From Gaiellales bacterium (GTDB lineage Bacteria; Actinomycetota; Thermoleophilia; RBG-16-64-13), in NCBI GenBank assembly GCA_012719395.1, contig JAAYAL010000025.1, positions 72,558-136,557 of the forward strand: DNA of 64,000 nt, given 5' to 3'. Positions within the stretch are counted from its first letter, which is position 1; each line of letters starts with the position of its first letter. Below the pieces are notes generated by a model. That model saw nothing but the letters and a program-made list of their open reading frames with translations. It was not told the DNA's origin and ran no database searches. The translations under genes and the position numbers were made by a program. Of this stretch, positions 2,486 through 40,834 are shown piece after piece.

Positions 2486-4810
2486 GTGCCTGTCTCTCGC
2501 CTCACCAGCCTCACAGATCTTCGCGCCGGACTGAACGGAGCCCAAATAAGGGCCGTGCTTCACGAGGAAGGCCCCTTGCTGGTGCTGGCCGGAGCCGGTT
2601 CCGGCAAGACCCGGGTGTTGACGTACCGCATTGCCTATCTGGTGTACTCTGGCCAGTTGAAGCCGCATGAGATCTTGGCCATCACCTTCACCAACAAAGC
2701 GGCAGGCGAGATGAGGGAGCGGGTGACGGGGCTGGTGGGTGGTGTGGGCCGCGCCATGTGGGTCTCCACCTTCCATTCTGTCTGCGCGCGCATACTGCGG
2801 GGGGACGCGGAGCGACTGGGGTATCGTCCCGGTTTCAGCATCTACGACCAGCAGGACCAGGTGCGGTTGGTCAAGCATTGCCTGGAGGAGCTCAATTTCG
2901 ATCCCCGCCGCTTCCCACCACAGGGCATCCATGCTCGCATCAGCGATGCCAAGAACAGGTTGGTGGGGGTGGAGGAGTACGGTGCGGACCGCGATGGCAA
3001 GGGACGGGCCACATCCTCGGCGCGGACTCTGACCGAGGTGGCGGCTGCCGCCTATCGTCTCTACCAGAAGAGGTTGTATGAGGCCAATGCCATGGACTTC
3101 GATGACCTCATCATGCGCACCGTGGACCTCTTCACGCTGTTCCCCGATCGTCTGCAGCACTATCGCCACGCCTTTCGCCACGTCCTGGTGGACGAGTATC
3201 AGGACACCAACCACGCGCAGTACGTCCTGGTGCGGATGCTGGCGGAAGAGCACCAACAGGTGACGGTGGTGGGTGACGATGATCAATCCGTGTACTCCTG
3301 GCGGGGGGCGGACATCCGCAACATACTGGAGTTTGAGCGGGACTTCCCCAACGCCAGTGTGGTCAAGTTGGAGCAGAACTATAGGTCTACCACCACAATC
3401 TTGGATGCGGCCAACGCCGTGGTGGCGCAGAACCGGGGCCGTAAGGCCAAACGGCTGTGGAGCGATCGCGGTGCGGGGGAGAAGGTGGCACTGCTGGAAT
3501 GCCGCGACGAGCACGAGGAGGCCCGCCGGGTAGCGGACGAGATAGAAGGCCTGATGGGTCGCGGCTACAATCTGGCAGACATGGCCGTCTTCTACCGGGT
3601 CAACGCTCAGTCCCGGGTGCTGGAGGACATGCTGGTGCGGTACGGCGTGCCCTATCAGGTGGTGGGGGGGACGAAGTTCTACGAGCGGGCGGAGATCAAG
3701 GATCTCCTGGCCTACCTGCGTGCGACCGTCAATCCCCGCGATGACATCTCCCTGCTGCGCATCCTCAACACGCCGCGGCGTGGAGTGGGCGCCGTGGCCG
3801 AGGCCCGGCTGCAGCAACATGCTTTCCAAGAGGGGGCCAGCCTGCGACAGACACTGGCCCTCAGCGATGACATCTCGGGCCTGACACCGGCAGCCTGCCG
3901 TGCATTCCAGAACCTGTCCTCCTGCTTCGCCACGTGGGAGACGAGGGCGATGTTGGGCCGTGAGGTGCCGGAGCAGTCGGCTTCGCGCGAGGGGAAGGGA
4001 GCTCGAGAGCTGGTGGGCGCCCAGGTGGAGAAGGTACTGGAGGAGAGCGGCCTGCTGGAGGCGCTTCGCAACGAGAAGACGCTGGAAGCGGAGGGACGCC
4101 TGGAGAACCTGCAGGAGTTCGTGGGCGTGGCTCGCGAATATGATCGCAACAACCCGGACGGGAGCCTCATCGAGTTCCTGCAGGAGATAAGCCTGTACGC
4201 CGATGCTGATTCCATCCGCGAGGGTGAGCCCCAACTGACGTTGATGACGCTCCACAACGCCAAGGGCTTGGAGTACCGCGTAGTGTTCATCGTGGGCATG
4301 GAGGAAGGCATGTTGCCTCATTCCCGTTCCCTCGACGGGCAGAACGTGGAAGAGGAACGCCGGCTCTGCTACGTGGGGTTCACCCGGGCCATGGATCTTC
4401 TCTATCTCTCCTACGCTGCCAGCCGCTCGCTCTACGGTGCAGCGAGCAGTAACCTTCCCAGCCGCTTCCTGGAGGAGATACCGTCCGCGCTGTTGCGGTA
4501 CTGCGATGGTGGCCGGGGCCTTCCCACCCGTAGCCTGCAGGGGCGTCGTCTTGCTGCCGGCACTCCCTCGGCGTGGGCTGCTCGTCCACGGCAACACAGT
4601 GGCCCGTCCTCGCCGGTACCGGTGCAGGGAGCGGGGGAGGCGGGAACGGACGGTCAGGTCTTCCGCGTGGGAGACAAGGTCCTGCACGCGAAATTCGGCG
4701 AGGGCGTGGTGCTCAACGTGGAACCGGGCGGCGTGGTCAGAGTGTTTTTCGCGCAACTGGGCGAGCAGAAGAACCTGTTGCTGGAATACGCTCCCCTGCG
4801 GAGGCTGTAG
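2486..4810 (+). CDS. pcrA: ATP-dependent DNA helicase PcrA/UvrD (SF1A)
   Basis: 774-residue 3'-5' helicase used in nucleotide excision repair and replication restart, close to the usual PcrA length. Visible motifs in order: Q-motif region LNGAQIRAV, Walker A LAGAGSGKT (~residue 35), FTNKAAGEM, DEYQDTNHAQY (Walker B), VVGDDDQSVYSWRGAD, QNYRS, TLHNAKGLEY and RRLCYVGFTRA. The C-terminal ~50 residues, GDKVLHAKFGEGVV onward, are the PcrA RNA polymerase-binding tail. The GTG start is only 9 bases after larE, so it may be co-transcribed. A long open minus-strand frame (2324-4984) is only its shadow. Confidence 0.96.
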   Translation: MPVSRLTSLTDLRAGLNGAQIRAVLHEEGPLLVLAGAGSGKTRVLTYRIAYLVYSGQLKPHEILAITFTNKAAGEMRERVTGLVGGVGRAMWVSTFHSVCARILRGDAERLGYRPGFSIYDQQDQVRLVKHCLEELNFDPRRFPPQGIHARISDAKNRLVGVEEYGADRDGKGRATSSARTLTEVAAAAYRLYQKRLYEANAMDFDDLIMRTVDLFTLFPDRLQHYRHAFRHVLVDEYQDTNHAQYVLVRMLAEEHQQVTVVGDDDQSVYSWRGADIRNILEFERDFPNASVVKLEQNYRSTTTILDAANAVVAQNRGRKAKRLWSDRGAGEKVALLECRDEHEEARRVADEIEGLMGRGYNLADMAVFYRVNAQSRVLEDMLVRYGVPYQVVGGTKFYERAEIKDLLAYLRATVNPRDDISLLRILNTPRRGVGAVAEARLQQHAFQEGASLRQTLALSDDISGLTPAACRAFQNLSSCFATWETRAMLGREVPEQSASREGKGARELVGAQVEKVLEESGLLEALRNEKTLEAEGRLENLQEFVGVAREYDRNNPDGSLIEFLQEISLYADADSIREGEPQLTLMTLHNAKGLEYRVVFIVGMEEGMLPHSRSLDGQNVEEERRLCYVGFTRAMDLLYLSYAASRSLYGAASSNLPSRFLEEIPSALLRYCDGGRGLPTRSLQGRRLAAGTPSAWAARPRQHSGPSSPVPVQGAGEAGTDGQVFRVGDKVLHAKFGEGVVLNVEPGGVVRVFFAQLGEQKNLLLEYAPLRRL

Positions 4811-4914
4811 GCGGAAAAGAAGACGGGCGTGTCGGGCCTCCGGGATGGTTGGGCCCGGGGGCGCCGCGTTCGGGTGTGAGCGGCGTCCCTGCGGTTCCGA
4901 GGGTGCAATACTCA

Positions 4915-8749: not shown

Positions 8750-10291
8750 ATGATAGAATTGCCATCTGTGAGACTCTCGGAGCTCGTACAGGATCTGGCC
8801 GGCGTCTCCCTCAGCGGAGAGCCCACCACGGCGATCAGCTCCCTCTCCTACAACAGCGCTCAGGTAGAACCCGGCGCGCTGTTCTTCTGTGTGCCTGGGC
8901 TCAAGCGTGATGGTCACGATTTCGCCGGGGATGCTGTGGAGAGAGGCGCCGTGGCACTGGTCGTGCAGCATCGCCTCCCGCTGGAAGTCCCTCAGGTGCT
9001 GGCGGCAGATACGCGACGGGCCATGGGCCCCATTGCAGCCCGCTTCTTCAGTCGGCCCAGCCGTGGCCTTCTGCTGGCGGGTATCACTGGGACAAACGGC
9101 AAGACCACTAGCGCCTACCTTGCCGCGTGGCTGTTGGAGGCAAGCGGGTTGCGCACCGGTCTCATTGGCACGGTGGAGAGACGCGTGGGCGGCGTGAGCC
9201 GGCGGGATGTGGACAGAACCACGCCGGAAGCCCTGGACCTGCAGAGGGACCTGGCCGGCATGGTGGCAGCGGGGGATCGCGCGGCCGTGATGGAAGTGTC
9301 CTCGCACGCGTTGGAGTTGAGTCGGGCGGACGATCTGGTGTTCGCGGCCGTGGCTTTCACCAACTTGACGCAGGATCACCTGGATTTCCACGGCAATCTG
9401 GACGCCTACTATCGGGCCAAGGCCCGTCTCTTTCTCGATCCCGTCTTCGCCGACCGCGAGCCGCCGGCGGTCATCAACATGGATGACCCGGTAGGGAGGC
9501 GCATCGCCCGGCAGGTTGCTCCCCATCGGCTGCTCACCTTCCGCGTGGCGGATGGTCGCGCCGGAGCCGTGGAGCCGGCGGATCTGGAGCTGCAGGGCCT
9601 GAAGGTGACGCCGGCCGGCATTGAAGGCCTCCTGCGGGTGGCCGGGCGGGCGGCAGACAGGGTGCACGCATCGGTGTCGAGGGAGCTGCACATTCCACTC
9701 TTGGGGCGGTTCAACGCCTCCAATGTGCTCACGGCCTTGGGACTGGGGCTTGCGCTCGGGCTGGATCTTGATCTGATGGTGGAGGCTGTGGCTGATTTCC
9801 CCGGTGTGCCGGGCCGCATGCAGCAGGTGGATGCCGGGCAGCCCTTCACCGTGCTGGTGGACTACGCGCACACGCCGGACTCAGTGGAGAACGTGCTGTC
9901 CACGGCGCGTGACGTGTGCCCGGGTCGGGTCATAGCCCTTCTGGGGTGTGGCGGTGATCGCGATCGGACCAAGAGACCTCGCATGGGAAGGGCGCTGGAG
10001 GAAGGGGCGGATGTGGCGGTGGTCACCTCGGACAACCCGCGCACCGAGCAGCCGACGGCCATCATTGCTGAGGTCTTGGCGGGTCTTGAGCAGCCGGAGA
10101 AGGCCCTCGTGGATGCCGACCGGCGTCAGGCCATGCGTACCGCGCTGCGCCAGGCGGCGCCGGGGGACATAGTGCTCATCTTGGGGAAGGGCCACGAGAG
10201 CGGGCAGGAGATCAACGGCCGGAAGATCGCCTTCGACGACTTCACCGTGGCCTGTGAGTTGCTGCGTGAGCAAGGCTGGCGGGCCACGTGA
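8750..10291 (+). CDS. murE: UDP-MurNAc-L-Ala-D-Glu:diamino acid ligase MurE
   Basis: Adds the third residue of the peptidoglycan stem peptide in the cytoplasm. The ATP loop ITGTNGKTTSAYL, TTPEALDLQ, VMEVSSHAL, DYAHTPDSVENVL and DNPRTEQP are present. The DNPR motif is the signature of meso-diaminopimelate-adding enzymes, so an mDAP wall is predicted. The ORF opens at TTG 8726; ATG 8750 and GTG 8768 (MRLSELV, the usual family N-terminus) are other starts and none has a clear Shine-Dalgarno. It overlaps murF by 4 bases. Confidence 0.94.
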   Translation: MIELPSVRLSELVQDLAGVSLSGEPTTAISSLSYNSAQVEPGALFFCVPGLKRDGHDFAGDAVERGAVALVVQHRLPLEVPQVLAADTRRAMGPIAARFFSRPSRGLLLAGITGTNGKTTSAYLAAWLLEASGLRTGLIGTVERRVGGVSRRDVDRTTPEALDLQRDLAGMVAAGDRAAVMEVSSHALELSRADDLVFAAVAFTNLTQDHLDFHGNLDAYYRAKARLFLDPVFADREPPAVINMDDPVGRRIARQVAPHRLLTFRVADGRAGAVEPADLELQGLKVTPAGIEGLLRVAGRAADRVHASVSRELHIPLLGRFNASNVLTALGLGLALGLDLDLMVEAVADFPGVPGRMQQVDAGQPFTVLVDYAHTPDSVENVLSTARDVCPGRVIALLGCGGDRDRTKRPRMGRALEEGADVAVVTSDNPRTEQPTAIIAEVLAGLEQPEKALVDADRRQAMRTALRQAAPGDIVLILGKGHESGQEINGRKIAFDDFTVACELLREQGWRAT

Positions 10292-30450: not shown

Positions 30451-30610
30451 GGTGACCTCCTCATCGGCCTGCCCGCCCCTTCAGAATACTCCGGAAGCGC
30501 ACTGCCTTACGTGCTAGACTGCGGGGCGTCCGGCGTCCCACGCCGGACGCCCAGCGGCCCGGCCGAGGGCCTGCGGCGAGGATTCGGTACCCCGACAGGA
30601 GGTGGGCTCC

Positions 30611-32653
30611 ATGACCGAGGCTGCGCCGGAAGCAGCCGCCTGCTTCGACGATCTGGACCAGCTGGCCGTCAACACCATCCGCACGCTGGCCATGGACGCC
30701 GTGCAGAAGGCCAACTCCGGGCACCCTGGCATGCCCATGGGCGCCGCCGCCATGGCGCACGCACTGTGGAGTCGCCATCTCATCTTCGATCCGGATGACC
30801 CGCAGTGGCCCAATCGTGATCGCTTCGTGCTTTCCGCCGGACACGGCTCCATGCTCCTCTACGCCCTCCTTCACCTGGCGGGCTATGACCTGGGGCTGGA
30901 TGAGCTCGAGCAGTTCCGCCAGTGGGGCAGCCGCACCCCCGGCCATCCTGAGCGGGGCGTCACTCCGGGGGTGGAAGTGACCACCGGACCTCTGGGACAG
31001 GGGTTCGCCAACGGGGTGGGCATGGCTATCGCCGAGGCCTTCCTGGCTCACCTCTTCAATCGCCCCGGGCACTCCGTGGTGGGCCACTACACCTTCGGCA
31101 TCGTCTCGGACGGGGATCTCATGGAGGGCGTGGCCGCGGAGGCGGCTTCCCTGGCCGGCCATCTGGGCCTGGGCCGGCTCATCTACCTCTACGACGACAA
31201 TCACATCACCATAGAGGGCCCCACGCAGCTGGCCTTCACCGAGGATGTGGGCCACCGCTTTGCCTCCTACGGCTGGCACGTCATGCAGGTGACGGACGGC
31301 AACGACCTGAGCTTGGTGGATGCCGCTATTGCCCGGGCCAAGCTGGTGGCGGACAGGCCCAGCCTCATCATGGTGCGCACGCACATCGCCTGCTGCAGCC
31401 CCAACAAGGAGGATTCGGCGGACTCACATGGCTCGCCTTTGGGGGCGGACGAGGTTCGCTTGACCAAGGAGGCCATCGGTTGGCCGCCCGACGAATCCTT
31501 CCGGGTCCCGCCGGAAGTCCGCGCCCGCTATGCTGAGGCGGCCGGCCGGGGCCGGGCCGCCCACGCCGCCTGGCGGGAGCGCATGGAGGCCTACCGCCAA
31601 GCCGAGCCGGAACCGGCCGCTCAGTGGGACGCCTACTGGGCACCAAAGCCGCCGGCGGGTTGGCAGGAGGCGCTTCCCGTCTTCACGCCGGAGGAGGGGC
31701 CCATTGCCACCCGTTCGGCCTCGGGCAAGGTGCTGAACGCCATCGCGGGCGCCGTTCCCAACCTGCTGGGCGGCTCCGCGGACCTGGCGCCCTCCAACAA
31801 CACGGCCCTCAAGGACAAGGGCCCCTTCGACAAGCGCTTCCGCGGCGGCCGCAACCTCCACTTCGGCGTGCGCGAGCACGGCATGGGCGCCGTCCTCAAC
31901 GGCTTGGCCCTGCACGGGGGCGTGCGCCCCTATGGCGGCACGTTCCTGGTCTTCTCTGACTACATGCGTGGCTCCATCCGTGTTGCGGCCCTGTCAGGTG
32001 CCCAGGTGGTCTACGTCTTCACTCATGACAGCGTGGCCGTGGGCGAGGACGGCCCCACGCACCAGCCCATCGAGCATCTGGCCGCGCTGCGGGCCATGCC
32101 CGGCCTCACCGTGATCCGCCCGGCGGATGCCAACGAGACGGTCGTGGCCTGGAAGGTGGCGTTGGAAGAGGTGGAGGGGCCCACAGCGCTCATCCTGTCC
32201 CGGCAGAACCTGCCGGTGATAGACCGCACGCACATGGCTTCGGCCGACCTTCTGTCCCGCGGCGCCTATATCATCTCGGAGGTGCACCACGGCAACGCGG
32301 AGGCCGTCATCATGGCCTCCGGTTCGGAGGTGGAGGTGGCGCTGGCCGCTCGGGATCTGTTGGCGGTGACCGGCGTCATGTGCCGCGTGGTGTCGTTCCC
32401 CAGCTGGGAACTGTTCGCCGCGCAGCCGGAGGCCTATCGCAAAGAGGTGCTGCCGGACCACCTGCCGGTGCGGGTGGCGGTGGAGGCGGCGGCCACCTTC
32501 GGCTGGGAACGCTGGACGGGGGATCGCGGCCGCATGGTGGGTATAGACCGGTTCGGGGCGTCGGCCCCGGGGCCACGGGTCATGAAGGAGTTGGGTATCA
32601 CGCCGCAGAGCGTGGCGGACGAGGTGCGGGCCGCCCTGGCGGCCGCAGTGTAG
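30611..32653 (+). CDS. tkt: Transketolase
   Basis: Thiamine diphosphate enzyme of the non-oxidative pentose phosphate pathway. [20 protein letters not shown] near the N-terminus, the ThDP motif GDGDLMEG variant [66 protein letters not shown] and RPADANE are present. 680 residues. ATG 30611 has AGGAGG 8 bases upstream. TGCTAGACT at 30512-30520 could be an extended -10 for it (weak). First gene of a tkt-tal-(zwf-pgl remnant) array. Confidence 0.96.
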
Positions 32654-32666
32654 GCGGGAGGGAATC

Positions 32667-33842
32667 ATGGGAGACGCCTTCGGCGACAATCCGTTGCAGA
32701 GACTGGCCACCGCCGGCCAGAGCATCTGGTATGACAACATCCGGCGCAGTCTCCTGGTGGATGGCGGACTGGCGGAGATGATGTCGCGTGATGCGGTCAC
32801 CGGCGTGACGTCCAACCCCACCATCTTCATGAAGGCCATCGCCGAGACCACGGAGTATGACGACTCCATCTTTGACCTGGCCCAGCAGGACGTGGATCCC
32901 AGGCAGACGCTGGACATCCTCATGGCCCAGGACATCCAGATGGCGGCCGATATCCTCCGGCCGGCCTGGGAGCGTACGCACGGTAAGGACGGATACGTCA
33001 GCCTCGAGGTGGATCCGGCTCTGGCCCACCAGGCGGAGGGCACGGTGGCTGAGGCGCATCGGCTGGCCTATCTGGTGGATAGGCCCAACGTGATGGTCAA
33101 GGTGCCGGCCACCACGGAGGGAGTGGAGGCCTTCCGGCGCCTGGTTGCCCAAGGGGCATGTATCAACGTGACGCTCATCTTTTCGCTGGAACGCTACCGG
33201 CAGGTGGTGGAAGCCTACATCTCCGGGCTGGAGGCGCTGGCTGCAGGGCTGGACGCGGGTGAGCAACTCCCGCCGCTCTCGGCCGTGGCAAGCGTGGCGA
33301 GCTTCTTCGTGAGCCGGGTGGATACACTCGTTGATGCAAAGCTGGATGCTCTGGCGGCGGCCGCCGCCAAAGGGGATGCGCCGGCGCTCACCCAGTTCAA
33401 GCGGCTGCGCGGCAAGGCAGCGGTGGCCAACGCCAAGCTGGCCTACCAGTACTTCCTCTCGGCCTTCAGCGGGCCCCGCTGGGAAGCGCTGGAGGCCCGC
33501 GGGGCCCGCGTGCAGCGCCCGCTGTGGGCCAGCACCAGCACCAAGGACCCCTCCTACCGGGATGTGGTCTACGCGGAGGAGCTCATCGGGCCCCAGACCG
33601 TCAACACCATGCCCCAGGTGCTGTTGGACGCGTTCCGAGATCACGGCCTGATCGCCTCCACGCTGTCCTCAGACGTGGAGAAGGCCAGGGAGAGGCTGGC
33701 CGGTTTGGAGGAAGCGGGCATCAACATGGCGGCGGTCACCGCGCAGCTGGAGGTGGAGGGCGTGAAGGCCTTCGCCGATTCCTTCACGGCGCTGGCCGAT
33801 GCCGTTGCGGCCAAGTACGCCATTGCGCGCGAGGGCGGCTGA
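32667..33842 (+). CDS. tal: Transaldolase
   Basis: Transfers dihydroxyacetone units in the pentose phosphate pathway. SIWYDNIRRSLLVDGGLAEMM, GVTSNPTIFMKAI and the Schiff-base lysine in RPNVMVKVPATTEGVEAF identify the long (~370-390 residue) Tal type common in actinobacteria. It begins 13 bases after tkt with AGGCGGGAGGGA upstream. Downstream lie only remnants of the oxidative branch. Confidence 0.95.
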   Translation: MGDAFGDNPLQRLATAGQSIWYDNIRRSLLVDGGLAEMMSRDAVTGVTSNPTIFMKAIAETTEYDDSIFDLAQQDVDPRQTLDILMAQDIQMAADILRPAWERTHGKDGYVSLEVDPALAHQAEGTVAEAHRLAYLVDRPNVMVKVPATTEGVEAFRRLVAQGACINVTLIFSLERYRQVVEAYISGLEALAAGLDAGEQLPPLSAVASVASFFVSRVDTLVDAKLDALAAAAAKGDAPALTQFKRLRGKAAVANAKLAYQYFLSAFSGPRWEALEARGARVQRPLWASTSTKDPSYRDVVYAEELIGPQTVNTMPQVLLDAFRDHGLIASTLSSDVEKARERLAGLEEAGINMAAVTAQLEVEGVKAFADSFTALADAVAAKYAIAREGG

Positions 33843-33891: not shown

Positions 33892-34030
33892 ATGATCAGC
33901 GGATCTCCCACTGCGGCGGGTCGGGAATTCCCGGACAATCCGTTGCGCGGCGGACGTCGCATGCGGGCCCTGCCGCCGTCGTTCACCATGGTCATCTTCG
34001 GAGTCTCCGGCGACCTTGCGCATCGCAGGC
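33892..34030 (+). pseudogene. zwf: N-terminal remnant of glucose-6-phosphate dehydrogenase (zwf)
   Basis: ATG 33892 opens a frame giving NPLRGGRRMRALPPSF followed by MVIFGVSGDLAHRR. This matches the start of actinobacterial Zwf, where NPLR..LR..R.PEP precedes VIFGASGDLARRKL. Homology stops directly after the GxSGDLA NADP loop; only ~46 of roughly 500 codons remain. The frame then continues to 34308 as meaningless sequence. The 5' end and the spacing after tal look intact. Confidence 0.72.
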
Positions 34031-34243
34031 GGCGTGCGGTGGCTGACTATGACCGTGTCCACCCTGGGCGCGGCGCGACGGCTGCTGTACCTGATGACGG
34101 GAGACAGAGCGGCGGCCGTTGCCTCCGTGTTCGCCGCGGATTCCGACCTGCCGGCGGCACGGGTGGCGGCCCGGGCCGCGAAGGTCACCTGGATCCTGGA
34201 CGCGGAGGCCGCAGCGCTGGTTTGCCGCGAAGCAGCGGGTTAG
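34031..34243 (+). pseudogene. pgl: C-terminal remnant of 6-phosphogluconolactonase (pgl)
   Basis: In the frame one base away from the zwf remnant, the sequence VRWLTMTVSTLGAAR, then LLYLMTGDRAAAV, then LPAARVAARAAKVTWILDAEAAALV matches the end of 6-phosphogluconolactonase (R(L/I)TLTLPVLNAAR, the FLVTG.EKA region, DLPA..V and the terminal W.LD.AAA). Only ~65 codons remain and the natural stop TAG is at 34241-34243. Together with the zwf piece, this is what one deletion from early zwf to late pgl would leave. Confidence 0.68.
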
Positions 34244-34250
34244 CTACAAT
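34222..34250 (+). promoter_or_regulatory. Candidate promoter for pyrR
   Basis: TTGCCG (34222-34227), a 17-base spacer and TACAAT (34245-34250) form a good sigma70-like pair at the end of the pgl remnant. Transcription would start about 32 bases before the pyrR ATG. The match is by eye only. Confidence 0.45.
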
Positions 34251-34288
34251 CTCGCTTCCTTTGCAGCCCGGGCCACTGGGGGAGGGAG

Positions 34289-34870
34289 ATGGCGGCAGAT
34301 ATGGTTGACACTACGGAGTCCGGGTCCCCTACCGTGGTGCTCATGGATGAAGAGCGCCTGCGGCGGACCTTGGCCCGCATAGCCCATGAGATCGCGGAGC
34401 AGGCGGAAGGCAAGGAGCTTGCCTTCGTGGGCATCCACCGCCGTGGGGTGGAGCTGGCCGAGCGGCTGGCGGATCTCTTCGCCGAGTTCTACGGCCACCG
34501 GCCCACCACCGGGTCCATCGATATCACCTTCTATCGTGATGACATCGATACCCGCCCGCCCACCCTGGCCTACGAGCAGCCGGTGGTGCGCTCCAGCCGC
34601 CTGCCCTTCGATGTGAACAACCGCCTCATCGTGCTGGTGGACGATGTGCTGCAGACCGGTCGCACCATCCGTGCCGCCATTGAGGCGCTGTTCGACTACG
34701 GCCGTCCCGCCGTGGTCAGGCTGGCGGTGCTGGTGGATCGCGGTCACCGAGAACTGCCCATCCGTCCCGATTTCGTAGGCAAGAACGTGCCCACGGCGCG
34801 GTCGGAGAAGGTCATCGTGCACCTCACCGAGACCGACCAGGTGGACGAGGTGGTGCTGGAGAAGCCATAG
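34289..34870 (+). CDS. pyrR: Pyrimidine operon regulator PyrR / uracil phosphoribosyltransferase-like
   Basis: PRTase-fold RNA-binding regulator that senses UMP/UTP. The PRPP loop is IVLVDDVLQTGRTIRAAIEALFDYGRP. FVGIHRRGVELAERLA, DITFYRDDI and ELPIRPDFVGKNVPT are PyrR-specific. ATG 34289 has GGGGGAGGGAG upstream. 193 residues. The pyr genes it should control (pyrB, pyrC, carA) start 6 kb downstream behind a polysaccharide block; a matching RNA site is seen before pyrB. Confidence 0.94.
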   Translation: MAADMVDTTESGSPTVVLMDEERLRRTLARIAHEIAEQAEGKELAFVGIHRRGVELAERLADLFAEFYGHRPTTGSIDITFYRDDIDTRPPTLAYEQPVVRSSRLPFDVNNRLIVLVDDVLQTGRTIRAAIEALFDYGRPAVVRLAVLVDRGHRELPIRPDFVGKNVPTARSEKVIVHLTETDQVDEVVLEKP

Positions 34871-34994: not shown

Positions 34995-36425
34995 GTGTCC
35001 GAGACCCTGCGTGAGCTCATCAGCCGAGGTCCGGTCGACGCTTCGACTGCTCTCAGCATTCTGGAGCAACTCCTCAGGTCTCTCGAGTTCGCCCACTGGC
35101 GCGGGCTGACGTACGCCTGCATAACGCCGGAGGGTATCGTTCTTTTTTCAGAGCCTCGGGGGATCAGGGCTCAGTTCGGCATCACTCCCGCGGACGTGGA
35201 TGCGACTGCGGTTCCCGGCGGTCCGGTCCCGAGCGCTCTCGCTGTCGAGTATGCGGCTCCCGAGCAGATTGCGGGCGCCGCGGCAGACGAACAGAGCGAT
35301 GTCTTCGCTCTGGCGGTGGTGGTCTACGAGATGCTCACCGGCAGCCACCCCTTCGGGGCTTCCGAGGACCTGTCCGAGGACGCCGTGAAGCAGCGCATCC
35401 TGCACGCCCCACCCCTGGAGATGCCCGGTACGGTGCGGGCCGCCCTGCCGGAGCACGTCGCACCGGCGCTGCGGGTTGCCCTGGCCAAAGACCCGGGGGA
35501 TCGTTTCCCCTCTGCCCTGCGCTTCCTGGAGGCGGTGCAGGCCGGGACCGTCATCACGGGCGAGGGGACCGTCACCACGGGCGAGGCTGCCACCGTCGAG
35601 GCTCGCACAGCTGCCGCCGCCCGCGAGCCTGCCGCGGTCACGGGCGTGGACGCCACGGCCGCCACGGAGGACGCCGCCGCTACCACGGAGGAGACCGCCG
35701 CCGCTTCGCCGCCGCCGCCCGAGCCGGCTGCCCGTGCCGAGTCCCACCATGGCACGCTGCGGGACAGGTTCCGGGGTCGGAAGATGCTCCTTTGCACGGC
35801 GCTGGGGGTGGTTGCCGTTATCGCCTTGGTGGCAGGGTTGGCCTTGCTCCTCAACCAGACCTCGGGCGGGAGTGAGACGAGCGTCGCCGGCTCCACCATC
35901 GGCTCCACCACCAGCGTCATCCCCGCGACCACGACCACGACCACGGTTCCGCCCACCACCAGCACCACCTTCGAGCTCCGGACCACCACCGCGGGGGTTA
36001 CGGCGGCGACGCTCGCTCGCTACGAGGAGTCTGATCCCCGCCTGGCCTACAGCGGCGACTGGTCTACTATCACCGACGATGCCGCGTCAGGGACCAGCCT
36101 CTTCCAGGCCGCCGATCCCCTGGCCTCGGTGACCGTCACCTTTGAGGGTACCTACCTGGCGTGGATCGCCAGAAGGAGCCCGGTCTACGGTATGGCCGAA
36201 GTCACGCTCGACGGGCAGAACCTCGGCACCATCGACCTCTATGATGCCGGCGCCGGCATGGGTCGACAGCAGAAGGTGTGGGGCTCAGGCACGCTCGAAC
36301 CCGGGGTGCATACAGTGACCATCTCTTGCACGGGGGAGAAGAACCCGGCCGCCACCGATACCATTGTCGGCATCGATGCGTTCGATGTGGTGGGTGCGCT
36401 CATCGCTCGCCGGCCGCGGTCATGA
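34995..36425 (+). CDS. Membrane protein with degenerate Ser/Thr kinase C-lobe and sugar-binding-like ectodomain
   Basis: Residues ~1-180 resemble only the C-lobe of a Hanks-type kinase: AAPEQIAGAAADEQSDVFALAVVVYEMLTGSHPF, ALAKDPGDRFPSA. No glycine loop or VAIK lysine exists; where HRDIKPEN should be the sequence is TYACITPEGI, and the DFG position reads RAQFGI, so it should be catalytically dead. An Ala/Glu/Thr linker, a membrane span (~264-287) and a Thr-rich stalk follow. The ~125-residue outer domain (WSTITDDAASGTSLFQAAD, FEGTYLAWIARRSPVYG, GVHTVTISCTGEKNPAATD) looks like a jelly-roll carbohydrate-binding type. GTG 34995 has AGGAGG. Next to polysaccharide genes; its role is unknown. Confidence 0.7.
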   Translation: MSETLRELISRGPVDASTALSILEQLLRSLEFAHWRGLTYACITPEGIVLFSEPRGIRAQFGITPADVDATAVPGGPVPSALAVEYAAPEQIAGAAADEQSDVFALAVVVYEMLTGSHPFGASEDLSEDAVKQRILHAPPLEMPGTVRAALPEHVAPALRVALAKDPGDRFPSALRFLEAVQAGTVITGEGTVTTGEAATVEARTAAAAREPAAVTGVDATAATEDAAATTEETAAASPPPPEPAARAESHHGTLRDRFRGRKMLLCTALGVVAVIALVAGLALLLNQTSGGSETSVAGSTIGSTTSVIPATTTTTTVPPTTSTTFELRTTTAGVTAATLARYEESDPRLAYSGDWSTITDDAASGTSLFQAADPLASVTVTFEGTYLAWIARRSPVYGMAEVTLDGQNLGTIDLYDAGAGMGRQQKVWGSGTLEPGVHTVTISCTGEKNPAATDTIVGIDAFDVVGALIARRPRS

Positions 36426-36542
36426 AGGTCTTTTGAAGAGCGTGTAGTACACTGAGCAAGATTTCGGCCCGGCTCAGGCCGGTCCTGTCATGGCCGGCTG
36501 CGCATCTTGGCCGCGCCCACTGTGACCAACTGGAAGGCAAGG

Positions 36543-38162
36543 ATGGCCAACGTGGAACCTGAGTTGCAGGAGCCCCTGGGGCTGGAGGACTACCTCCGGG
36601 TGGTCAGAGAGCGGGCCTGGATCATCGTGGCGGCCGTGATCATCGGAGCCCTTGCGGCGTTCGCGTACTCGCAGAGCGTCACACCTCTCTACAGCGCCTC
36701 CGCCAGTCTGGTGTACGAGAAGACCAATCTGGACACGGCGCTGTTGGGGACGCAACTCACGGGCGAGTCGAACCGCCTGCGTACGCTGGAGACGGCGGCT
36801 GCCGCCGTGGGGCAGGACGTATCCATAGCCGAAGGAGTCAAGACCCAGCTTGGCTCTACAGAATCCGCCGAGGCGCTCTCAGACATGGTCAGCGCCCGCG
36901 CCGACAAAGACCGCGATCTCATCACCATCGAGGCGGTGAGCGCCGATCCCGGCCAGGCGGCAGGGGTGGCCAACGCTTTCGCCGATCAGTTCGTCATCTA
37001 CCGCCAGAACGCGGCGCGCAAGACCGTGGCGGCGGCGCGTGACGTGGTGAAGGAGCAACTGGACGCTCTCAAGCCCAGTGAGCTGCAGGGCTCCTACGCT
37101 CTGATGCTGCAGGAGAAGTATGAGACGCTGCGCATCCTGGAGTCCATGCAGACGGGCGGTTTCAGCGTGCTGAGCCAGGCCGCGGTGCCACAAAGCCCCT
37201 TCACGCCGCGCACCACCCGCAACATCCTTCTGGGATTGTTGGTTGGCCTCGTTGTGGGAGCCGGGCTGGCCTTCCTCATTGACTACCTCGACAAAAGGGT
37301 CAAGGACGAGAGGACGCTGGAGAACGAGTTGGGTGTCCCGGTGCTGGCGGCCATCCCCGACGTGGACAGGCGCCGGCGCCTGGGCAAAGACCGCGGGCGC
37401 TCCGCCGCGCCGGTGGGCTTCGCCACCCACCGTTCCCTGCTGGAGCCGTTTCGCACCTTGCGCTCCAGCCTGCAGTACTTCAGCGTGGAGAATCAGCGCC
37501 CCGTGTGGCTCATCACCAGCGCGCTGTCCCGCGAAGGGAAGACAGTCACCACCATCAACCTGGCCCTCAGCCTGGCCCTCTCTGGCAAACGGGTGATCGT
37601 GGTGGAAGCCGACCTGCGCCGGCCCATGGTGGACACGTACCTGGGCCTCGGCGCGCGGGAGGGCTTGTCCGACGTGTTGGCCGGGATGAAACAGCCCACC
37701 GAGGTCCTGCAGTTGGTCAAGGCCACGGACTACCTGCCCGCGGGCGGCCAGAACCGGCAGGCAGAGATGGGTTCGCGACCCATGCATCGCAACCTCTACG
37801 TGATGGCCTCCGGTCCGTTGCCCCCCAACCCGGCCGAACTGCTTTCTTCCGCCCGCATGGCCAAGGTGGTCAAGGAGCTGGCGGAGACCGCCGATTGCGT
37901 GCTCATTGACACTCCACCGGTGCTCCTGGTGTCAGATGCCCTGGTGCTGTCTAAACACGTGGATGGCGTCATTCTGGCCGCTCGCCTGAACTCCACCACC
38001 CGCGATGAAGTGCGCGAGATGCGCAGCCTGCTGGACCGCGCCGGCGTGCGCGTCATCGGCACCGTGGCCGGAGGGACGAAACGGGGCCCCGGCTACTACC
38101 GCAAGCGGGGCTACGGAGGCTACAAGTACGGCTACGACTACGGCTACGAGGCCGAGGAATAG
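36543..38162 (+). CDS. Wzz-type chain-length protein fused to BY-kinase (polysaccharide co-polymerase)
   Basis: Controls polymerisation and export of surface polysaccharide. Residues ~12-250 are a Wzz domain with spans near 26-45 (AWIIVAAVIIGALAAFAYS) and 227-247. Residues ~290-500 are a bacterial tyrosine kinase: Walker A TSALSREGKTVTTINLA, Walker A' VVVEADLRRPMVD, Walker B DCVLIDTPPVLLVSD. The tail GYYRKRGYGGYKYGYDYGYE is the tyrosine cluster that is autophosphorylated. ATG 36543 has GGAAGG upstream; the track's TTG 36507 is less likely. 539 residues. Confidence 0.92.
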   Translation: MANVEPELQEPLGLEDYLRVVRERAWIIVAAVIIGALAAFAYSQSVTPLYSASASLVYEKTNLDTALLGTQLTGESNRLRTLETAAAAVGQDVSIAEGVKTQLGSTESAEALSDMVSARADKDRDLITIEAVSADPGQAAGVANAFADQFVIYRQNAARKTVAAARDVVKEQLDALKPSELQGSYALMLQEKYETLRILESMQTGGFSVLSQAAVPQSPFTPRTTRNILLGLLVGLVVGAGLAFLIDYLDKRVKDERTLENELGVPVLAAIPDVDRRRRLGKDRGRSAAPVGFATHRSLLEPFRTLRSSLQYFSVENQRPVWLITSALSREGKTVTTINLALSLALSGKRVIVVEADLRRPMVDTYLGLGAREGLSDVLAGMKQPTEVLQLVKATDYLPAGGQNRQAEMGSRPMHRNLYVMASGPLPPNPAELLSSARMAKVVKELAETADCVLIDTPPVLLVSDALVLSKHVDGVILAARLNSTTRDEVREMRSLLDRAGVRVIGTVAGGTKRGPGYYRKRGYGGYKYGYDYGYEAEE

Positions 38163-38227
38163 GCCCGGGAGGCCGGTACCTCGAGCGCGGGTGGCCTTGC
38201 TATGCTGAAACACATCAGGCAACCACC

Positions 38228-38530
38228 TTGTCCATGTGCAGGAAGGTCGGCTCGGAGATCTTGGCCTTTTCCTTCGTATGCTCGACGGTCATGCTGACCA
38301 AGGCTCCATTGGCGTCCATGTGGAGGAAGCCTGGTGGCCCATCCCCTGCCCCTTGCCCGGGGCGGCCGTGGCCGAGATCCCCTGCACCGCCTTCGGCAGG
38401 CGGGGTGTACCGGTGCGTCTCATCGTGCGCTGGGTGCCTCCCAGCCCGGGGAGTCAACTGGCTCTCTTTGCCGCCTACGCCTACCACGCCTTCATCGCCG
38501 ACCGCGTGGGTGACACGGATGGTGGGGCAC
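38228..38530 (+). pseudogene. Decayed transposase fragment, IS1380-like
   Basis: Two frames carry pieces that resemble actinobacterial IS1380-family transposases: AFSFVCSTVMLTKAPLASM in one frame, then EEAWWPIPCP, VAEIPCTAF and LIVRWVPPSPGSQLALF in the next, followed by AAYAYHAFIADRVGDT. The catalytic region and both ends are missing and there is at least one frameshift. It is an old remnant, not a working element. No inverted repeats were found. It fills most of the 614-bp gap between the BY-kinase and the dehydratase. Confidence 0.6.
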
Positions 38531-38569
38531 GGCCGCCTCACCACTGCCACGCTCAGGCGGCGCTTCCTT

Positions 38570-38692
38570 TCGTTTCCGGAGCCGGTGGCGCAAGAGCTTG
38601 GTGAGAACTCGCTGATGTTCGAAGTCCATCCGACTCTCACCGTAAGCCACATGACAGGAATGGCGGATATCGTGGAAGAAGTCATGGCGTAG
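38570..38692 (+). pseudogene. C-terminal remnant of a DegT/DnrJ/EryC1-type sugar aminotransferase
   Basis: The last codons of the frame ending at 38692 read PVAQELGENSLMFEVHPTLTV, then SHMTGMADIVEEVMA. This resembles the C-terminus of DegT/DnrJ/EryC1/StrS aminotransferases (CxxSLMF.VHPTLTEEDM....AV.KV). Upstream codons lose the similarity and merge into the transposase remnant. If right, a nucleotide-sugar aminotransferase once preceded the PglF-like dehydratase. Assignment rests on ~35 residues. Confidence 0.45.
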
Positions 38693-38776
38693 GCCACCGG
38701 GTAGGTTTTTGTCCGGGGCAGGGTGATGCGCGGCGATGCATAACGCGCATTCCCATCTCGGCCCACTGTTGCTAGG

Positions 38777-40834
38777 ATGGCTACCGGTTGGTTCCACGAG
38801 TGGGGGGAGACTGGCTTGACCGGCGTTAGGCACGTGCTCGGCCGTATGACGCGCCGCCGCCTGCTGGCCGTCCTGCTGGACGTCATCATCATCGTTCTGG
38901 CCTACGATGTGATCTTGGGATTCCGTTTCCAGAGGGCGGTGCCGGACGACTTTGTGCTCGGCTCCCCCAGGGTCCTGCACTTCCTGGTCATCGCCGTGGT
39001 GGTCCATGTGGGGTTCAACGCCGGCTATCACGTGTACTCCATCGTCAATCGCTACGTGGGCCTGCCGCAGGCCAGTTGGATAGCGGGGGCCACAATCGCC
39101 TCTGTCCTTGTCCTGCTGCTGGTGGACCTGGGCTGGCTCTTCACCGGCGCGTTCCTCATGCCGCTCTCCGTGGTGCTGCTGGGAGGAGCCACGGCCGGCG
39201 TGGCCATGATCGCGGTGCGCTTCTACAGTCGTGTCTTCCAGATGCAGAGCCTAAGGGCGGTTCGTTCCGGCAGGCGGATGGTGTTGGTGGGCGCGGGTTC
39301 GGCGGCGGAGATGCTAGTGCGGCAGGTGGACGGCACCCCTTCCCTGGACGTGAGGATCGTGGGGCTGCTCGATGATGACCCCCAGATGCAGCACATGCGC
39401 ATCCACAACTATCCGGTGCTGGGGACCATAGATGACGCGGTCCGCGTGGCCGCGGAGCACGAGGTGGAGGAGTTCGTGATAGCCATCCCTTCCGCCGGCA
39501 CCAGGGAGATGGAACGCATCTACAGCGAGCTCAAGAACACGGGTGCAGCCATCAGAACGCTTCCCTCAGTGTCCGAGCTTTTCGGGGGCAAGGTGAGCTT
39601 GACCGATATCCGCGAGCTCGATATTGAGGATGTCCTGGGCCGTCCTCCCGTGCAGACCGATCTGGCTGCCATCGCCAGCTACATCAAGGGCAGGCGGGTG
39701 CTGGTGACGGGGGCCGGGGGCTCCATAGGGTCGGAGCTGTGCCGGCAAATAGCCTCCTTCGCTCCCGAGAAGCTGGTGCTGGTGGATCGTGACGAGTCGG
39801 CCCTCTACGCTCTGCACGAGGAGCTGCGCGGCCGGGCATTCTCCCGGTATTCGCTGGTGGCCACGCATATCCAGCAGTCCCGGAAGATGCGTCGCATCAT
39901 GGAGGAGCATCGTCCTCACGTGGTCTTTCACGCGGCGGCCTTCAAGCACGTGCCTCTGATGGAGCACTCGCCGGACGAGGCCGTCTTGAACAACGTGATG
40001 GGCACCATGGTGGTGGCGAAGGCCGCGGCCGGCGCCGGGGTGGAGCGTTTTGTCAACATCTCCACCGACAAGGCGGCCGACCCCGTGAGCGTCATGGGGG
40101 TGAGCAAGCGGGTAGCGGAACTGGTGGTGCGGCACGTGGGCGCCCAGAACCTCCAGACCTGCTTCTGCTCCGTGAGGTTCGGCAACGTGCTGGGGAGCCG
40201 GGGGAGCCTGCTGCCCATCTTTCGCCGGCAGATCAAGGAGGGCGGCCCGCTGACCGTCACCCACCGCGACATGACCCGCTATTTCATGTCCATCGCCGAG
40301 GCTGTGCAGCTGGTGCTGCAGGCTGCCTCCATGTCCACGCACGTGGACGAGCAGGGGGCGGTGTTCGTGCTGGAGATGGGTGAGCCCGTCAGGATTCTGG
40401 AGTTGGCCGAGAAGATGATCCGGTTCGCCGGCCACGGAGTGGCTGCCGACATCCAGATAGCGTTCACGGGCCTCCGGCCGGGCGAGAAGCTGCACGAGGT
40501 ATTGGTGGGCACCCTGGAGCACAGTGCGCCCACCTCCCACCCCATGGTCTTCCTGGTTCGTCCTGGTGCCCTCGCGAGCGAGACGGCGGGGGTGACCCCG
40601 GGAACCGGCTTCGGCCAGAAGCTCGACGGGTTGATCAGCCTGGCGTGCCACCATGCGGGTCGCGATACGTTGGTGGCGGCGTTGGGCGAGCTTGTTCCCA
40701 CCTACCGGCCCTTCGCCTTGGAGGAGGCCGGGGCCTTCCCGGTGGGTGCTGACGGCCAACGGGACGGAGCTCCCGTGGAGCAGGGGGGGTGGCGGCCGGA
40801 GGAGGCGGAGGCGGAGGCGCCCGTGGCGTCGTAA
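38777..40834 (+). CDS. NDP-sugar 4,6-dehydratase, PglF/WbpM/CapD type (membrane-bound)
   Basis: Converts UDP-HexNAc-type sugars to 4-keto-6-deoxy intermediates for surface glycans. Four N-terminal membrane spans (~28-145) precede a CoA-binding-like Rossmann domain (MVLVGAGSAAEMLVRQV). The SDR dehydratase domain follows: VLVTGAGGSIGSELCRQIA, VFHAAAFKHVPLMEHSP, NISTDKAADPVSVMGVSKR (the SMK-type active site) and RFGNVLGSRGSLLPIF. 685 residues with an extra hydrophilic tail. The usual partner aminotransferase is missing; only the remnant just upstream is seen. Confidence 0.9.
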   Translation: MATGWFHEWGETGLTGVRHVLGRMTRRRLLAVLLDVIIIVLAYDVILGFRFQRAVPDDFVLGSPRVLHFLVIAVVVHVGFNAGYHVYSIVNRYVGLPQASWIAGATIASVLVLLLVDLGWLFTGAFLMPLSVVLLGGATAGVAMIAVRFYSRVFQMQSLRAVRSGRRMVLVGAGSAAEMLVRQVDGTPSLDVRIVGLLDDDPQMQHMRIHNYPVLGTIDDAVRVAAEHEVEEFVIAIPSAGTREMERIYSELKNTGAAIRTLPSVSELFGGKVSLTDIRELDIEDVLGRPPVQTDLAAIASYIKGRRVLVTGAGGSIGSELCRQIASFAPEKLVLVDRDESALYALHEELRGRAFSRYSLVATHIQQSRKMRRIMEEHRPHVVFHAAAFKHVPLMEHSPDEAVLNNVMGTMVVAKAAAGAGVERFVNISTDKAADPVSVMGVSKRVAELVVRHVGAQNLQTCFCSVRFGNVLGSRGSLLPIFRRQIKEGGPLTVTHRDMTRYFMSIAEAVQLVLQAASMSTHVDEQGAVFVLEMGEPVRILELAEKMIRFAGHGVAADIQIAFTGLRPGEKLHEVLVGTLEHSAPTSHPMVFLVRPGALASETAGVTPGTGFGQKLDGLISLACHHAGRDTLVAALGELVPTYRPFALEEAGAFPVGADGQRDGAPVEQGGWRPEEAEAEAPVAS

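Follow-up and report, generated by a model that had tools for sequence, protein, structure and literature searches.

The genome from which the window derives has, with high probability, lost the oxidative branch of the pentose-phosphate pathway through two deletions, one of ~3.2 kb across zwf-opcA-pgl, which lies in the window, and one of ~0.7 kb in the gnd gene. The window is the whole 64,000-nucleotide stretch of DNA that was analysed (G000:C9:72558-136557); its source genome, G000, comprises 2.43 Mb in 92 contigs and is 98.2% complete. The original prediction had described a scar in which the first codons of zwf run into the last codons of pgl, and what is new beyond it is the gnd scar, the lack of back-up genes and a coordinated, recurrent loss among relatives. 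The locus represents ordinary gene loss, a known pathway being caught part-way through its reduction; this reading is well supported and its novelty modest, since bacteria have often lost the oxidative branch (PMC4518329).

The zwf-pgl scar and its intact counterpart

Consistent with the original prediction, tkt (transketolase; 30602..32653, plus strand; 74% identity with tkt of the sister genome G002, 679 aa) and tal (transaldolase; 32667..33842, plus strand; Pfam PF00923, E 1.2e-79; ~65-66% identity with G002 tal) are intact. They are followed on the same strand by a 5' remnant of zwf (33892..34029), whose frame is opened by an ATG at 33892 and which retains the start codon and first 46 codons, ending at GVSGDLAHRR as predicted. 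By tblastn, codons 16-46 share 67.7% identity with G002 Zwf (31 aa, E 4e-7). Pfam returned no G6PD match on the 48-aa remnant, merely a chance 16-residue model, so a family-specific profile was needed; the profile of the Zwf N-terminus, built from eight family sequences with the window excluded, found the remnant at E 4.4e-15, the next-best match among 2112 stop-to-stop frames having an E of 0.18. The 3' remnant of pgl (34028..34243, plus strand) aligns with positions 173-225 of the 225 in PF01182 (E 4e-5) and was found at E 1.5e-14 by a profile of family orthologues, the window likewise excluded (next-best match 0.35, same 2112 frames). The prediction that this remnant lies one frame off zwf and ends at its natural stop (TAG, 34241-34243) held, but its length of ~65 codons did not, as 71 are retained. 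These matches exclude the possibility that either remnant lacks homology to Zwf or Pgl. The joint lies at approximately 34024..34034 on the plus strand; because the two remnants overlap there by a couple of ambiguous bases, it is not placeable to the exact base.

Neither remnant has the makings of a functional enzyme. A functional Zwf has a full NAD-binding domain and a C-terminal PF02781 domain, where only 46 N-terminal codons are left here, and a functional Pgl has a complete PF01182 domain, where the remnant scores 21-24 bits against a curated cut-off of 27. Annotators should therefore not treat the Zwf and Pgl fragments at this locus as functional. The zwf-frame ORF continues out of frame through the pgl remnant to 34308 (33892-34308), its TGA overlapping the start region of the intact right-hand neighbour, a pyrR-like phosphoribosyltransferase gene (34289..34870, plus strand; PF00156, E 3.9e-21; 84% identity with G002, 186 aa); this overlap could permit translational coupling but is probably due to chance.

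At the corresponding place, G002 has an intact tkt-tal-zwf-opcA-pgl-pyrR locus (zwf 519 aa, pgl 262 aa) with the gene order and neighbours of the window, and the same intact order was found in G003, G007, G009, G012 and G014. Altogether, zwf-opcA lies downstream of tal in eight genomes of the same family (the above six, G005 and G011), of which six have a complete pgl and then pyrR, while in G011 the order is conserved as far as a contig end inside pgl. Set against G002, the window is missing everything from the remainder of zwf through opcA to codon ~177 of pgl; what is left of the first and last of these genes retains its order and orientation, and both flanks are syntenic with the intact relative. 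Because 3199 bp separate codon 43 of zwf from codon 178 of pgl in G002, a single deletion of ~3.2 kb is sufficient, in agreement with the one deletion originally proposed. Beyond pyrR the slots differ in content: the window has protein-kinase-like, Wzz/tyrosine-kinase-like and polysaccharide epimerase/dehydratase-like genes before pyrB (34995-40834), and G002 has a methyltransferase-like gene there, all names being assigned from sequence alone.

Because the joint lies in a 92-contig draft assembly, one could envision that the genome carries an intact zwf-opcA-pgl whose outer ends were falsely joined by the assembler. However, the 441 bp around the scar are single-copy in G000, and scar sequence recurs elsewhere in the genome only as matches of some 15-37 bases, most of them imperfect, a length insufficient to cause misjoining. 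Nor did this 98% complete genome yield any fragment of zwf, opcA, pgl or gnd beyond the two scars. PF02781 (G6PD), PF10128 (OpcA) and PF00393 (6PGD) had zero matches in G000 even though control families were found as expected, and the scar is the sole PF01182 match. The predicted loss of the oxidative branch had been made contingent on the absence of other copies, and this genome search turned up neither a further copy of zwf, opcA or pgl nor a complete gnd. With the non-oxidative branch kept, the gene content would class the organism as deficient in the oxidative pentose-phosphate pathway.

The second scar and the age of the deletions

In G002, gnd is on a separate contig, flanked by genes for GAPDH and TetR. 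Contig C79 of the window's genome keeps this neighbourhood (CorC, PEP-utilising protein, GAPDH, the gnd position, TetR, gamma-CA, Sir2), with flanking genes of 57-81% identity with those of G002 and one distal gene of 36%. In place of gnd is a 65-codon ORF (C79:10756-10953, L149), identified by synteny with G002 and by profile (E 2.5e-26), in which an in-frame deletion of ~0.7 kb has left the start, the stop, 7 N-terminal codons and 58 C-terminal codons. The product reads MELALVG up to the joint, continues SGEGRWTV and ends in SR, the last 58 codons beginning SGEGRWTVAEAI. The N-terminal NADP domain and PF00393 domain of a functional Gnd are lacking, in keeping with the null PF00393 search. 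Two deletions in unlinked genes are exactly what lost selection on a pathway predicts, and assembly error would hardly produce independent scars at two separate loci serving one pathway; we therefore regard an artefactual joint as highly improbable and return to two real deletions as our explanation.

The remnants show little sign of prolonged decay. Measured to other family members, their amino acid distances stand in a ratio of 1.03-1.08 to those of the intact G002 genes, as compared to ratios of 0.96-1.09 for the intact neighbours tkt, tal, pyrR and pyrB, although with 30-71 residues per remnant this is a weak basis for an age comparison; third codon positions of the old frames have a GC content (GC3) of 0.70-0.83 versus 0.84-0.87 in intact genes. 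Since divergence of the remnants does not exceed that of intact orthologues, a long period of free decay is not indicated, and both deletions are probably recent relative to the divergence from G002.

Such youth bears on two further explanations. The joint rests on one assembly, and the sampled population could be mixed, in which case the deletion would be real but only one variant, coexisting with intact cells; remnants that look young, with divergence not raised and coding GC3 kept, are what a mixed population would contain. However, the presence of the gnd deletion in one assembly implies a lineage already committed to the loss, and no minor contig with pieces of zwf or gnd is in the bin (though binning could have left one out), so we consider such a mixture unlikely. 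Alternatively, the remnants may have been retained on purpose, with the fused ORF or the gnd mini-ORF encoding a small protein, or with the former coupling translation to pyrR. The in-frame gnd joint with its start and stop kept, the zwf frame stop-free until just beyond the pyrR start region and the unraised divergence would all fit, but stop-free frames come easily in 67% GC DNA, and low divergence is equally explained by young deletions. In addition, almost nothing of Zwf past the beginning of the cofactor-binding motif remains in the fusion, whose pgl part is out of frame, and no remnant persists in the relatives G008 and G010. Retention for a function is thus most improbable, and deletion of genes no longer under selection remains the better account.

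Recurrence among relatives and the haem-copper oxidases

Loss of the two genes is coordinated. Of the 61 genomes compared, zwf and gnd occur together in 49 and are both missing from 10, with zwf alone in 2 (Fisher p 7e-10, kinship ignored), and both exceptions are incomplete: G013 is 64% complete, and G049 is 87% complete with zwf at contig ends. Within the window's family, zwf and gnd are both absent from five genomes (G000, G001, G008, G010 and G017). In G008 and G010, the zwf-opcA-pgl cassette is gone from the slot matching that of the window, with pyrR following tal either directly or past unrelated sequence, and gnd is absent likewise; in contrast to the window's genome, which retains remnants, theirs is a clean loss with no remnant detectable between tal and pyrR.

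Other changes were also seen in the family. In G010, the slot between pyrR and tal (L127, G010:C129 9937-10107) is occupied by an element of ~170 bp, a possible MITE, whose terminal inverted repeats are 26 nt long (AGGCTGCYGAAAAACGA). Two genomes keep zwf and opcA and have no pgl between opcA and pyrR (L123 of G005, 9754-9818; L132 of G013, 4702-4822). In G016, a different zwf, ~40% identical, lies beside pgl (L134, G016:C24, 1308-4558) with a full-length-type gnd nearby (contig 3671-4558); zwf-pgl-gnd arrays such as this suggest that another set has replaced the native pathway genes in part of the family.

All five zwf-less family members, the window's genome included, lack a haem-copper oxidase. 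Conversely, all nine of the family's COX1-bearing genomes keep zwf, whereas it has been lost in five of the nine without COX1 (one-sided Fisher p 0.015, kinship ignored). This suggests that loss of the oxidative branch is tied to anaerobic lineages, an anaerobic lifestyle being read here solely from the absence of haem-copper oxidases. The link to anaerobic life is a loose one, as G002 keeps the pathway without COX1 and, outside the family, G021, G048 and G058 are zwf-less and carry COX1; these three rule out COX1 absence as a class-wide predictor of zwf loss. We put forward only tentatively, and with somewhat less than even confidence, that the native oxidative branch has been lost repeatedly, from one slot and from the unlinked gnd, in lineages of this thermoleophilian family without haem-copper oxidases, the window's genome being an intermediate. 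Should this be true, two readable scars would make the order and cause of the dismantling of a pathway testable; for the present, the order of events for the two deletions would be a reconstruction. We found no account in the literature of oxidative pentose-phosphate loss in Thermoleophilia.

Metabolic consequences and known systems

The most probable course is the following. One deletion of ~3.2 kb ran from codon ~47 of zwf through opcA to codon ~177 of pgl and left a frameshifted, non-functional zwf/pgl fusion between tal and pyrR. Of the unlinked gnd on contig C79, a separate deletion of ~0.7 kb spared just 7 codons at the start and 58 at the end. Between them, the two losses abolish the whole oxidative branch, in which glucose 6-phosphate is converted to ribulose 5-phosphate with a yield of 2 NADPH. 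Pentoses would then come from the retained non-oxidative branch, for rpe is present in G000 and tkt, tal and rpe may permit their synthesis starting from glycolytic intermediates. NADPH would have to be generated by other means. Genes for one of these were identified, those of the proton-translocating transhydrogenase PntAB: contig C46 (6.2 kb) carries a complete operon of pntA-alpha, pntA-beta and pntB (L144, 1895-4759), and a second set, similar to that of G002, is truncated by a contig end (L145, C8, 6748-9196). Within the family, PntB occurs only in G000 and G002. Its absence from the other zwf-less members rejects PntAB as a general replacement; in G000 it may compensate for the lost NADPH source. 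Relaxed demand for NADPH under anaerobic life is a plausible reason that the loss could be tolerated in an organism without a haem-copper oxygen reductase.

Regardless of its cause, the locus provides an unusually legible snapshot of a pathway being dismantled, with two independent scars, an intact sister locus and clean losses in cousins, and we offer the genome set for asking whether loss of aerobic respiration makes the oxidative branch dispensable. Its closest known counterpart is the actinobacterial tkt-tal-zwf-opcA-pgl operon as represented in G002 (L121), with which the window shares its gene order, the ends of the remnants and its flanks, a divergent ProDH/P5CDH-like gene on the left and pyrR-pyrB-pyrC on the right; the operon is complete in G002, whereas in the window its middle, from within zwf to most of the way through pgl, has been deleted. 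A parallel for compensation is known from E. coli strains underproducing NADPH, in which a transhydrogenase can supply it (PMC4340650): there, as may be the case in G000, a membrane-bound PntAB-type enzyme stands in where an NADPH source is missing, but the E. coli rescue occurred during experimental evolution in the laboratory, whereas that in G000 is deduced from genes. Prokaryotes generally withstand disruption of either G6PDH or 6PGDH, and annotated G6PDH is found in 66% of bacterial genera, leaving about a third without it (PMC4518329 and Table 1 therein). Like the bacteria that naturally lack the oxidative branch (PMC4518329), G000 is without G6PDH, 6PGL and 6PGDH and keeps the non-oxidative branch; unlike them, it still bears readable footprints of both deletions and has a related genome in which the syntenic genes are intact.
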